Positions 25,425 to 29,916 of a DNA stretch of 56,389 bases are shown one piece after another; the stretch's first letter is position 1; the number at the start of each line of letters is the position of its first letter. The DNA is taken from positions 1 through 56,389 of the forward strand of contig JAJNBB010000006.1 of assembly GCA_021155885.1 (NCBI GenBank), read 5' to 3'. Below the pieces are notes generated by a model. That model was given only the letters and a program-made list of their open reading frames with translations. It made no database searches and had not been told where the DNA came from. Source of the stretch: Fibrobacteria bacterium (GTDB lineage: Bacteria > Fibrobacterota > Fibrobacteria > UBA11236). A program made the position numbers and the translations under genes.

Positions 25425-27500
25425 ATGGATCTCAATATCGAACTGCCCCTGTTCCTCGGTTTCGCGGGAGGCCTCGCGGCCGTGGCCTATGCGATCTGGA
25501 AGTCGCGCTGGATCATGGGGCTCGAAGTCCCCGATGAAAAGCTCCGCCGCATCGGGGGCTATGTCGCCAAGGGCGCGATGGCTTTCCTCTCGCGCGAGTA
25601 CAAGGTCCTGCTTCCCATCGCCCTCATCGCCGCGGCGCTTCTGTTCTTCGGCGGCCATAGCCATCTCAAGTGGGAGGCCCTGACCTTCCTGCTCGGCGCG
25701 GGCTGCTCCGCGCTCGCCGGCTACTTCGGCATGCGCATCGCGACGCAGGCCAACTCGCGCACCACCTGGGCCGCGCGCACCGGCCTCAACGAAGCCCTCA
25801 AGGTTTCCTTCGCCGGCGGTTCGGTGATGGGCATGAGCGTGGCGGGCCTCGCGCTCATCGGCATTTCCAGCATCCTGTACGCCACCATCCACGCCTTCGG
25901 CCGCGACGCCGAGGCGCTCGGGTCCTGGTCGCTCCCCATCCTTTCCGGCTTCGCGCTGGGCGCCTCCTGCATTGCGTTGTTCGCGCGCGTGGGCGGCGGC
26001 ATATACACCAAGGCCGCCGACGTCGGCGCCGACCTCGTCGGCAAGGTCGAGGCCGGCATCCCCGAGGACGACCCGCGCAACCCCGCCACGATCGCCGACA
26101 ACGTGGGCGACAACGTGGGCGACGTCGCGGGCATGGGCGCCGACCTGTACGAGTCCTTCGTCGCCTCGGTGCTCGGCTGCATGATCCTCGGCCTGGCCAT
26201 CGACGCGCCGCCCGACCTGAAGCTGCGCCTGTGCCTGCTGCCGTTGGTGCTCGGCGCCGCCGGCGTGATCGCCTCCATCATCGGCATGTCCCTGGTGCGC
26301 GTACGCGAGGGCGGCTCGCCCCAGGCGGCCCTGAACCGCGGTTCCTTCGTGGCCGCCGGCCTCGCGGCGCTGTTCAGCTGGCCGATCTTCCATTACGGCC
26401 TGAAGGGCATGACCTTCGCGCAGGGCTTCACCGCCAACAATCTTTTCGTCTGCACCATCATCGGCGTGGTGGCCGGCACGGCCATCGGCCTGCTCACCGA
26501 ATACTACACCGGCACGGGCCGGCGCCCCGTCGACTCCATCGTGCGCGCCTCCGAAACGGGTCCGGCGACCACCTTGATTACCGGCCTCGGCGTGGGCATG
26601 GCCTCCACCGTGCTCCCCGTGGTCGTCATGGCCCTGACCGTGCTCCTCGGCTACTGGCAGGCCGGCCTGTTCGGCGTCGCCATCGCCACCGTGGGCGTGC
26701 AGCTCACCTTGGGCATCCAGCTCGCCGTCGACGCCTTCGGCCCCATCGCCGACAACGCGGGCGGCCTCGCCGAGATGTCGGAGCAGCCCCCCCACGTGCG
26801 CGCCAATACCGACAAGCTCGACGCCGTCGGCAACACCACGGCCGCCATGGGCAAGGGCTTCGCCACCGCCTCGGCGGCCCTCACCTCCGTGGTGCTGTTC
26901 TCCGCCTTCAAGGAAGAGTCCGGCGCGGGCACGATCGAGATCACCGACCCCATGGTGCTGATCGGCCTGCTGCTGGGCGCGGTCGTGCCCTACCTGTTCT
27001 CCTCGATGTGCATGATGTCGGTGGGCCGCGCCGCCTTCAAGATGGTGGAGGAAGTCCGCCGCCAGTTCCGCACCATACCCGGCCTGCTCGCCGGCAAGGC
27101 GGAGCCCGACTACGGGCGCTGCGTCGACATTTCCACCTCGGCCGCGCTGCGCGAAATGATCCTGCCCGGCCTGCTCGCCGTGCTTTCCCCGGTGGCCGTC
27201 GGCTTTCTGGGCGGCGTGCCGATGCTGACGGGCTTCCTGGTGGGCGTGACCATCTCGGGCGTGGCGCTCGCGATCTTCATGTCCAACGCGGGCGGCGCCT
27301 GGGACAACGCCAAGAAGACCATCGAGGCCGGCGCGGGCGGCGGCAAGGGTTCGGAGTCGCACAAGGCCGCCGTGGTCGGCGACACCGTGGGCGACCCGTT
27401 CAAGGACACCGCGGGGCCTTCGCTGAACATCCTGATCAAGCTCATGGGCGTTATGTCCGTCGTGATCGCTCCCATGCTGCGCCGCTATTGGGGAAATTAA
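25425..27500 (+). CDS. hppA: Membrane-bound proton/sodium-translocating pyrophosphatase
   Basis: The 691-aa protein has about 16 membrane helices and the conserved motifs of M-PPases: the [20 protein letters not shown] loop, [20 protein letters not shown] with the Mg-pyrophosphate aspartates, and the C-terminal [12 protein letters not shown] and [17 protein letters not shown]. At the K+-site motif GNTTAA (near residue 469) the last position is Ala, as in the K+-dependent class; K+-independent pumps have Lys there. It couples pyrophosphate hydrolysis to H+ or Na+ export; which ion cannot be told here. ATG 25425 is preferred over GTG 25413 because GAAGG lies at the right distance. Confidence 0.96.
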
Positions 27501-27622
27501 CGGATCGGTTTTCGACGGCTGCGACCGGCGTCCCGCGACGTTGCTCCTCCTCGTCGTACTCCCGGTACGACTGCGTCGGAGCGCCTTGCGGGCCTTGGTC
27601 TCGCTCGCCGGAAACCGATCCG
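27501..27622 (+). repeat. Structured repeat element after hppA (copy 1 of 2)
   Basis: It starts right after the hppA stop. The outer arms CGGATCGGTTT (27501-27511) and AAACCGATCCG (27612-27622) are exact reverse complements. Inside lies the hairpin GTCGTAC-TCCCG-GTACGAC (27553-27571), flanked by GCTCC and GGAGC. The same element, with a compensatory change in the stem, lies at 29818-29916. It probably forms a 3' RNA structure and may act as a terminator. Confidence 0.7.
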
Positions 27623-27676
27623 TTACTCCTTTCTTTTTGAAAACATTATTTTAGGCATACTACGCCGAGGTGAACC

Positions 27677-28462
27677 ATGGAACGCAAGAATCGACTTTAC
27701 CAGATCCTGTTTCCCAACCAGGCCCTGATCGCCTCGCAACTGAACCCCGAGGAGTTCGCCCAGCACTACCTGGTGGGGTCCACCCGCCATTACAGCGGCA
27801 AGCTGGCTTTCGCGGAGATCGACGGCAGCTTCCGCCACCCGTACTTCAAGATCGACGAGGCCTTCGCCGAGCTGAAGCCGCATCCGGACGGAACCCCCAA
27901 GCGCACCAAGTTCATCTGCTCCTACCGCGTGATGGAGCACATGGATTTCGACTTCATCCTGAAGCTGTACCTGACCACCTCGGAGGGGGCCGTCCTGGAG
28001 CTCAGCCCGGGCGTGTACGACAAGACCCACCAGCCGGGTTTCCTGCGCACTTACGCCGAGATCGCCCCGCTGTCGATGCTCGTGCTTTCGCCGTTGTCCA
28101 TGCCCGACTTCGGCACCTTCATCACCGAGCCGGGCAACCCCAAGGGCGCTCCCAAGCTGTTCTACGCGCAGATCGATTTGAACACCGAGGAGTTCCTCGA
28201 GACCTTCGAGAAGAACCCCTTCGCCCAGGCGCCGTTCTCCTTCCTGCACCCCTCCAAGCTGCGCGACGCGATCCTGGGAATGCGGGACGAGCCCGCCAAG
28301 TCCACCAAGGGCCTCTCGTTGTTCTGTCCCCTCGACCAGATTTCCTTCAAGAAAATCCGTCACGGGTTCATGTTCGCCTCGCCGGACCGCTACAAATTTT
28401 TCCCCATGCCCTCGCCGCAGGAGATCGAAGCCAAGAACTTCAAGTTCTGGCAGGGGATGTAG
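27677..28462 (+). CDS. Hypothetical protein, 261 aa, family not recognised
   Basis: The product is soluble by appearance, with no signal peptide or membrane helix. It starts MERKNRLYQILFPNQALIAS and is rich in aromatic and proline residues, with segments such as YLVGSTRHYSGKLAFAEIDG, HMDFDFILKLYLTTSEGAV and SLFCPLDQISFKKIRHGF. The codon bias (GGC, CTG, AAG) is that of the neighbours, and GAGGTG stands before ATG 27677, so I think it is real. I cannot assign a family. It stands alone between the hppA repeat and a nested terminator, so it is probably a single-gene unit. Confidence 0.75.
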   Translation: MERKNRLYQILFPNQALIASQLNPEEFAQHYLVGSTRHYSGKLAFAEIDGSFRHPYFKIDEAFAELKPHPDGTPKRTKFICSYRVMEHMDFDFILKLYLTTSEGAVLELSPGVYDKTHQPGFLRTYAEIAPLSMLVLSPLSMPDFGTFITEPGNPKGAPKLFYAQIDLNTEEFLETFEKNPFAQAPFSFLHPSKLRDAILGMRDEPAKSTKGLSLFCPLDQISFKKIRHGFMFASPDRYKFFPMPSPQEIEAKNFKFWQGM

Positions 28463-28467
28463 CCGGA

Positions 28468-28566
28468 AGCTTACAGCTTACAGCGAACAGCAAAAAAGGC
28501 GGCCGCCCTGGCTGCCTTTTTTGTTTTCCGCTATTCCCTATTCGCTGTAAGCTGTCCGCTGTAAGC
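28468..28566. repeat. Heptad-phased inverted repeat (AGCTTAC/AGCGAAC type) between convergent genes
   Basis: The left arm 28468-28491 is AGCTTAC, AGCTTAC, AGCGAAC, AGC. The right arm 28530-28566 carries the complementary units (TTCGCTG, TAAGCTG, TCCGCTG, TAAGCT) with one extra unit. The arms flank a classical terminator. The unit AGCGAAC/AGCGGAC also builds the element at 45358-45440. Confidence 0.8.
28491..28526. terminator. Bidirectional rho-independent terminator
   Basis: CAAAAAAGGCGGC (28491-28503) pairs with GCTGCCTTTTTTG (28511-28523) with one mismatch, giving A- and T-runs on both sides of a GC stem. It lies between the convergent 261-aa gene and the SDR gene, inside the heptad-repeat element. 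Confidence 0.85.
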
Positions 28567-29357
28567 TAACTCACCCTCGGCGCGTTCTGCTTGCGCATCA
28601 TCTCGGCCAAGGTGTCGTCCGGCAGGGCGTGGGTGAGCGCGTCGCGCGCCTTGTTGGCGAGCCCGCTGACCACCGAGGTCTTGCCCGCCATCAGGGCCTC
28701 ATAGCCGTCGCGCGCGACCTGGGCCGGGTCGGCCAGCCCGTCGCGGTGCTCCTCCCAATGCGCGTCGCCCGCGTTTCCGAAAAAACCCGTGTCGGTCGCG
28801 CCCGGGAGCAGCGCGGTTACCGTGACGCCCGTGCCTTTCCATTCGTTGGCGAGGGCGTGCGAGAGGCTGTGGACGTAGGCCTTGGTGGCCCCGTACACGG
28901 CCAGCAGGGGCGAGGGCATCTTGCTGACCACGGAGGCCAGTTGCAGGATACGGCCGTCGCCGCGCGCGACCATTTCGCGTCCGAAAAGATGGCTGAGCGC
29001 GGTGAGCGAAACCAGATTGACCTGGATGATTTCCAGGTGGCGGCCGAGGTCGGTGTCGAGGAACGCGCTGAACTCTCCCTGCCCCGCGTTGTTGACCAGG
29101 ATGTCGACGCGCACGTTTTCGGAGAGCGTCCAGGCATAGATTTCCTCCGCGGCGTCCGCGATGGACAGGTTCACGGGAAGGGTGCTTACGCGCGCGCCCT
29201 CGTCGCGAAACTCCCGAGCGCAGCGTTCCAGGTCCTCCTCGCTGCGAGCCACGAGCACGAGATCGAATCCTTCCTGCGCGAACACCCGGGCCAGCTCGTA
29301 CCCGATGCCGCTGGTGGCGCCCGTTATCAGGGCGGTTTTTCCGGTCCCGTCTTTCAT
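28566..29357 (-). CDS. SDR-family NAD(P)-dependent oxidoreductase
   Basis: The 263-aa protein is a classical short-chain dehydrogenase. It has the cofactor motif TGATSGIGYE at residues 12-21, NNAG near residue 90, the catalytic serine in LASVVSK (Ser142) and Tyr155/Lys159 in the YGATK motif. The VARSEED stretch after the second strand has an Arg that favours NADPH. The substrate is unknown; the closest general type is DltE/YqjQ-like SDRs. It shares its end region with a repeat element. Its 5' end faces the small lipoprotein gene across about 146 bp. Confidence 0.92.
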   Translation of the reverse strand: MKDGTGKTALITGATSGIGYELARVFAQEGFDLVLVARSEEDLERCAREFRDEGARVSTLPVNLSIADAAEEIYAWTLSENVRVDILVNNAGQGEFSAFLDTDLGRHLEIIQVNLVSLTALSHLFGREMVARGDGRILQLASVVSKMPSPLLAVYGATKAYVHSLSHALANEWKGTGVTVTALLPGATDTGFFGNAGDAHWEEHRDGLADPAQVARDGYEALMAGKTSVVSGLANKARDALTHALPDDTLAEMMRKQNAPRVS

Positions 29358-29503
29358 GCGGACCTCCTTGTTTTTGTTTACAAGCAGGCTACAAAGCCCG
29401 CGAAAAGGGGCAAGTAATCCGGGGGCAAGTTTTCGTCAGGAATGCGCATGGCGTGTCCGCCCCCGGGGTGTATATTCCTGTGCGAACGCCCCCGGGAGAA
29501 CCC

Positions 29504-29815
29504 ATGAAGAAAACCGCCCTCGTCCTGACGTTGGTTACCCTCCTCCTGCTCGCCCTGGGCCTGGGGGGGTGCGGCTTCGTCGGTTCCACGCCCATCTCTC
29601 CCGAGCACCCTCCGGGATTCTTCATGGGGATCTGGCACGGCATGATCGCCCCCTGGACCTTGATCCTGCGCCTGTTCTTCGAGATCAAGATGTACGCGGT
29701 GCCGAACAACGGCTGGTTCTATGATCTGGGCTATTGGATCGGCATCACGGGCTCGATCCCGTTCGGGTGGCTGGCCGCGATAATCGCCGTCCTGGTCCAT
29801 GTTTTTATGGGATAA
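29504..29815 (+). CDS. Small membrane lipoprotein, conserved unknown family
   Basis: The 103-aa product has a signal with the lipobox LGGC (cysteine at residue 23). A short segment PISPEHPPGFFMGIWHGMIAPWTLILRLF follows (conserved core FFMGIWHGMIAPWTLI), with a hydrophobic stretch, an NNGWFYDLGYWIG loop and a last membrane helix (WLAAIIAVLVHVFM). I have seen this core pattern in unnamed bacterial proteins, but no role is known. A GGGAGAA ribosome-binding site precedes ATG 29504. A structured repeat element begins 3 bp after the stop. Confidence 0.7.
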   Translation: MKKTALVLTLVTLLLLALGLGGCGFVGSTPISPEHPPGFFMGIWHGMIAPWTLILRLFFEIKMYAVPNNGWFYDLGYWIGITGSIPFGWLAAIIAVLVHVFMG

Positions 29816-29817
29816 AC

Positions 29818-29916
29818 GCCGGGCTGCGAGCGTCGCAATGCGGCGTTGCTCCTCCTCGGCGTACTCCCGGTACGCCTGTGTCGGAGCGCCTGGCCTTGCT
29901 CGCTCTCGCACCGGCT
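29818..29916 (+). repeat. Structured repeat element after the small lipoprotein gene (copy 2 of 2)
   Basis: This copy aligns with the element at 27501-27622 over its central 70 bp (GTTGCTCCTCCTC core, then hairpin, then GTCGGAGCGCCT). Its hairpin is GGCGTAC-TCCCG-GTACGCC (29858-29876). Compared with copy 1, the second stem pair is G-C instead of T-A, so pairing is kept. The outer arms (GCCGGGCTGCGAGCG against AGCCGGTGCGAGAGCG when reverse-complemented) differ in sequence from copy 1 but also pair. Confidence 0.7.

Follow-up and report, generated by a model that had tools for sequence, protein, structure and literature searches.

A palindromic, probably mobile DNA element often placed at stop codons in a Fibrobacteria genome and in distant bacteria

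Introduction

Small palindromic repeats are usually detected by sequence similarity. For two of them the target of insertion has been described: RUP inserts at TA, probably through IS630-Spn1 (PMC2229807), and MITEPsy1 at CTAG or YTAA, which it duplicates (PMC3189936). We have analysed a palindromic element found in a window of 56,389 nucleotides (the whole stretch of DNA studied, contig JAJNBB010000006.1 of Fibrobacteria bacterium assembly GCA_021155885.1). The contig is C41 of G000, here called the own genome, a MAG of 2.59 Mb in 101 contigs that is 87.5% complete. A search of the open-access literature found no element of such kind described. The original prediction, made from the letters of the window, had proposed two copies of a structured element that could be either a selected RNA structure or a palindrome-maintained repeat.

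Results

Two related copies in the window

The two copies are indeed related, with 81% identity across 88 nt (27517-27604 and 29822-29909) and the same TCCCG loop. The exact core CGTAC-TCCCG-GTACG occurs at 27555 and 29860, where the chance expectation for CGTACN5GTACG with one mismatch allowed is 0.75. The proposed compensatory change from T-A to G-C in the central stem was confirmed (GTCGTAC/GTACGAC against GGCGTAC/GTACGCC). The features of the two loci are as follows.

25425..27500, + strand: hppA, H+-translocating pyrophosphatase (PF03030, E 1.4e-260)
27498..27625, + strand: full palindrome of copy 1, an inverted repeat with outer arms TAACGGATCGGTTT / AAACCGATCCGTTA
27512..27611, + strand: inner 100-nt hairpin of copy 1 with internal loops (covariance model R1, 101.2 bits, E 2.7e-19)
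27553..27571, + strand: apical hairpin of copy 1, GTCGTAC-TCCCG-GTACGAC (sequence and pattern match)
27677..28462, + strand: gene after copy 1 (no Pfam family), directly after hppA where the element is absent
29504..29815, + strand: small lipoprotein-like ORF (no Pfam family)
29817..29916, + strand: inner 100-nt hairpin of copy 2 (covariance model R1, 111.3 bits, E 1.8e-21)
29858..29876, + strand: apical hairpin of copy 2, GGCGTAC-TCCCG-GTACGCC (sequence and pattern match)

The palindrome of copy 1 is near-perfect, with a folding energy of -74 kcal/mol (z -6.6 against shuffles). It has TA at each outer end (27498-27499 and 27624-27625), and its first codon is the TAA stop of hppA (27498-27500). 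Copy 2 begins 1 nt after the TAA stop of the lipoprotein-like ORF (29813-29815). Its outer arms pair over about 6 bp only and its fold z-score is -2.6, so the pairing outer arms described for both copies hold mainly for copy 1. A further palindrome, AGCTTACAGCTTACAGCGAACAGC ... GCTGTAAGCTGTCCGCTGTAAGCT, lies right behind a TAG stop at 28453-28575 and encloses a terminator-like hairpin (AAAAAAGGCGGCC/GGCTGCCTTTTTT).

Family size and spread

The family counts about 30 members in the 2.6 Mb own genome, where a search with copy 1 as the query gave about 23 real copies. A covariance model built from 19 own-genome copies gave about 31 matches in the own genome and 16 in the same-genus genome G001, with no match in the same-genus genomes G002 and G003. 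Three same-family genomes had 3 to 5 matches each, and many same-class genomes had 1-7 weaker ones. Whole-genome searches at E 0.01 also found the element in distant bacteria, with five matches in an actinobacterial MAG (G062) and four in an Acidobacteria MAG (G063); 3 of 60 genomes around the latter matched at 1e-4. Nine genomes that came from chance pattern matches or from a Myxococcales MAG gave none at E 0.01, in a search whose first pass missed the L121 copy.

Most matches in a pattern search of genome contigs were due to chance and lay mostly in apparent coding DNA. The model score exceeded 38 bits in only 4 of 16 pattern loci, one of the four being in a same-genus genome. The GGCTGCGACC/GGTCTCGCTC motif common to loci selected by pattern follows from the selection itself; the copies in G063 and G130 were found by the model alone. 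A plasmid collection gave one weak match only, inside an annotated Streptomyces plasmid gene, and a phage collection gave no match to the element.

Covariation and the nature of the structure

The covariation test suggested with the original prediction strongly supports a selected structure across 19-32 genome copies. When 30 pairs were scored over 19 copies, 96.8% of cells were paired, double compensatory changes were present in 22 of the 30 pairs, and the covariation score was 0.473 against 0.133 in shuffles. Sliding one side by 1-3 columns lowered pairing to 34-44%.

Structure at the RNA level is expected to favour G-U over A-C. The first alignment contained 589 Watson-Crick, 5 G-T and 13 A-C cells, and 74 model-aligned rows (about 2000 pairs) contained 45 G-T and 54 A-C. 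For tRNAs in the same DNA 16 of 234 pairs were G-T (6.8%, against about 2% in the element); ARAGORN shows no A-C cells as pairs, and this comparison is therefore valid for the G-T share only. Since G-T is no commoner than A-C, the element looks like a DNA structure rather than an RNA. Neither window copy matched an Rfam 15 family at gathering score, and relaxing the search to E 10 gave a single 16-bit chance match over the end of copy 2. Four other element loci had no match in Rfam.

The internal loops persist across copies, and in some their strands are swapped (TCCTC/TGCGTC against CCGTC/TTCCTC), as one would expect of a loop recognised as a structural motif. A swapped loop below the apical hairpin is seen in rows L016, L019, L021, L022 and L023 of alignment A1. 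Loop columns were not significantly more conserved than stem columns within the own genome (0.86 against 0.81, p = 0.21). No regular U-run follows the right arm when flanks are read by eye, T-runs being found in few copies only, for example copy 1.

Placement at stop codons in the own genome

The placement of 32 own-genome copies was taken from a gene caller run on this genome, the gene calls being approximate. Sixteen copies start -3 to +16 nt from the stop of a same-sense gene. The left gene is in sense for 22 copies (two-sided p = 0.05) and points away in the other 10. The expectation of a sense-oriented stop codon in front of every copy thus fails, half of the copies lying elsewhere. Many copies of the own genome lie directly against a TGA or TAA stop, and clear TAGTG ends are lacking here. 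None of the nine copies with a CCCTG motif at the right abuts a stop, against 16 of the other 23 (Fisher p = 0.0008), the classes having been set after inspection of the flanks.

CTTCGTT-like and CCCTGTT-like motifs lie beside many copies, and at L073 (G001:C3:126098-129496) two elements in opposite orientation are joined by a CTTCGTT-rich array. Another short structured repeat, GTTGAAAGCATGAG-hairpin-CGAATCA, is present in or beside the arms at L015, L018, L020, L021, L065 and L081, and its insertions have made mosaics in the own genome and in G001.

Long copies in distant genomes

The relatives found in other genomes, Acidobacteria- and Myxococcus-type MAGs among them, have the form of near-palindromes of about 162 nt. 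TAGTG...CACTA ends or close variants, usually within CTAG, were observed in G006, G008, G009, G062, G063, G130 and the Myxococcales MAG. Three near-identical 162-nt copies occupy different loci in G006. Seven near-identical copies with CTAGTG...CACTAG ends do so in G130; of these, one is without the core and another is truncated at the end of a contig. The occurrence of almost the same sequence at separate loci shows movement. Beyond GTG/CAC the terminal repeats differ entirely between genomes, and many copies have arms of their own. Outer arms consisting of inverted host DNA were rejected as an explanation because L063 and L079 share arms at different loci.

The terminal TAG is the stop codon of a flanking called gene in all seven G130 copies, on both sides at L180. 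The same holds at L031, L082, L086 and L151, and by eye at L083; at L034 and L152 the terminal TAG is not a gene stop. In orthologues without the element the position of the stop codon (TGA, TAA or TAG) is unchanged, and so the genes are not truncated by the element. Placement at stop codons is far from random, and it is exact in distant relatives. CTAG is rare, and 5 of 17 extragenic sites are at stops (the window and loci from G130 relatives), which makes CTAG density alone a poor explanation, with the reserve of a small sample. The strand relative to the gene is opposite in G130, and mostly opposite in G006, compared with the own genome.

CTAG or TA is found at both ends of most long copies and less clearly in the own genome, with no base-exact empty site. 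From these ends we infer a target of TA, with a preference for CTAG. To the left of the element at L181 (G130:C18) there is a 20-nt remnant, CTAGTGCCCCGACACTAGTG, which resembles two joined element ends and is perhaps an excision scar.

Empty sites in same-genus genomes

The two copies of the window are missing from the corresponding gene junctions of same-genus genomes, and so are at least three further copies. In G001, G002 and G003 hppA is followed by the next gene within a few bases and without a hairpin, and the C terminus of hppA is the same in these three genomes without the element. The site of copy 2 is empty in G001, that of L009 in three genomes and that of L063 in G001. L064 lies between genes that we take, from their sequence, to be parA and parB; in all three relatives these two genes have an ATGA overlap. 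An origin of the elements in loops of pre-existing terminators was rejected because the hppA and parA/parB relatives have abutting or overlapping genes and no hairpin. The relatives are only 70-82% identical, so that junctions are not base-exact, and at this distance the comparison with empty sites has shown no target duplication.

At L005/L030, L010/L068 and L062/L073 the element is present in both species with different stems, which indicates either slow turnover or the same site targeted twice. At L067 and L069 a stretch that lies about 190 nt to the left of the element is of very high identity between two species, where neighbouring genes elsewhere reach no more than 75-80%. This stretch has no Rfam match and is possibly an undescribed RNA.

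Searches for a mobilising enzyme

Enzyme searches covered the Y1_Tnp and DDE_3 domains. Y1_Tnp (IS200/RAYT) was found in none of G000 (87.5% complete), G001, G006 and G008. DDE_3 (IS630) was absent from all element-bearing genomes tested; it was detected in two genomes only, both without the element by the model. RAYT/Y1 and IS630 DDE_3 were rejected as the mobiliser, being absent where the element is richest.

Discussion

The element is dispersed, has near-identical copies at different loci, is present or absent at orthologous junctions, is placed exactly at stops and shows strong Watson-Crick covariation. It is probably a non-autonomous, MITE/REP-like palindromic mobile DNA that lands at TA or (C)TAG, very often at stop codons, and that may be recognised as folded DNA. 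As is general for MITEs, the copies in G006 and G130 are dispersed and near-identical, have terminal inverted repeats and are too short for a transposase gene. A near-palindrome of roughly 100-165 nt would copy itself to new sites by means of an enzyme that recognises the folded single strand or cruciform and not the sequence of the stems. The stems would then be free to drift while remaining complementary, and the ends, TAGTG...CACTA, would stay fixed together with several unpaired positions in the loops. Entry at TA, with the G of the element next to it, would rebuild a TAG stop and hence be harmless to the gene. Alternatively, stop placement could come from selection for a post-stop function rather than from targeting. 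More tentative is the full proposal of a cross-phylum mobile DNA that is recognised by the shape of its fold and not by its sequence, inserts at the TA of TAG stops, rebuilds the stop and is moved by an undescribed enzyme.

Three other explanations were weighed. The first is a hairpin with a function as RNA in the 3' UTR, where it would act directly behind the stop as a terminator, a REP-like barrier or an RNase III substrate and so stabilise or end the mRNA. The sense stop within 16 nt of 16 of the 32 own copies, the left gene in sense for 22 of 32, the stop codon on which nearly all distant long copies begin and the very stable fold of copy 1 all suit such a role. We nevertheless consider it unlikely, as G-U is no commoner than A-C, the gene strand is reversed in G130 and mostly so in G006 relative to the own genome, 10 of the 32 own copies have a left gene that points away, no regular U-run lies behind the right arm, the same junctions lack the hairpin in same-genus genomes and no Rfam family matches. 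Of the two possibilities in the original prediction, the repeat kept as a palindrome is therefore the better fit, in the form of palindromic mobile DNA, and an RNA structure is disfavoured by the G-U and A-C counts and by the strand of the distant copies.

An ordinary MITE with a CTAG or TA target, moved by an IS5- or IS630-type DDE transposase and palindromic only through its long terminal repeats, has precedents in MITEPsy1 (PMC3189936) and RUP (PMC2229807) and would explain the CTAG or TA at the ends of long copies. It appears improbable, with DDE_3, the IS630-type domain covered by the searches, in no element-bearing genome tested and the internal covariation left unexplained. Transposases of the DDE type depend on a terminal sequence of their own, and here the terminal repeats of different genomes are entirely unlike beyond GTG/CAC. 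Compensation by Watson-Crick pairs only, with no wobble intermediates, and the many copies with unique arms could also be produced in quasi-palindromes that do not move and in which template-switch repair at replication forks keeps the arms matched. That process would erase the conserved internal mismatches, and the near-identical copies at seven loci in G130 need movement. With such dispersed copies seen, template switching is very improbable as the explanation and at most a contributor.

One architecture is common to hairpins in Fibrobacterota, Acidobacteria-type, Myxococcus-type and actinobacterial MAGs (labels as given for the MAGs), and because the stems change so fast it is visible to structure-aware searches only. 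If the shape of the DNA is what is recognised, the element would join integron attC sites as another example of mobile DNA whose folded strand is what is read. To be seated exactly at stop codons would be a simple means of damage-free spread in gene-dense genomes. G130 and G006, with their near-identical copies, are direct places to seek the mobilising enzyme.

Several described systems resemble the element in part. Like integron attC sites (PMC2727003) it has little sequence conservation, and folded-strand recognition, shown for attC, may apply to it also; however, the aligned copies, read by eye, have no R-box GTTRRRY, and the element occurs as dispersed single copies rather than in cassette arrays. 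REP/REPIN sequences with RAYT (Y1) are likewise dispersed, extragenic, imperfect palindromes in both orientations (PMC2817692), whereas the element is longer (100-165 nt) and Y1_Tnp is lacking in the two richest genomes. MITEPsy1 of Pseudomonas syringae is of similar length (100 nt) and has a target, CTAG or YTAA, of the kind that the element may use, but it has 18-nt terminal repeats related to ISPsy2, a restricted distribution and some copies that interrupt genes (PMC3189936). RUP of Streptococcus pneumoniae and Correia/NEMIS (PMC2229807) are also dispersed long stem-loops of about 100-160 bp with TA termini. They carry a conserved terminal repeat of their own, that of RUP matching IS630-Spn1, where the element has hypervariable, compensated stems; unlike them, the element is seated at stops, and no IS630-type transposase was found in the element-bearing genomes tested. 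The element differs from those described in its stems, hypervariable yet Watson-Crick, in its seating at stop codons and in its spread across phyla.
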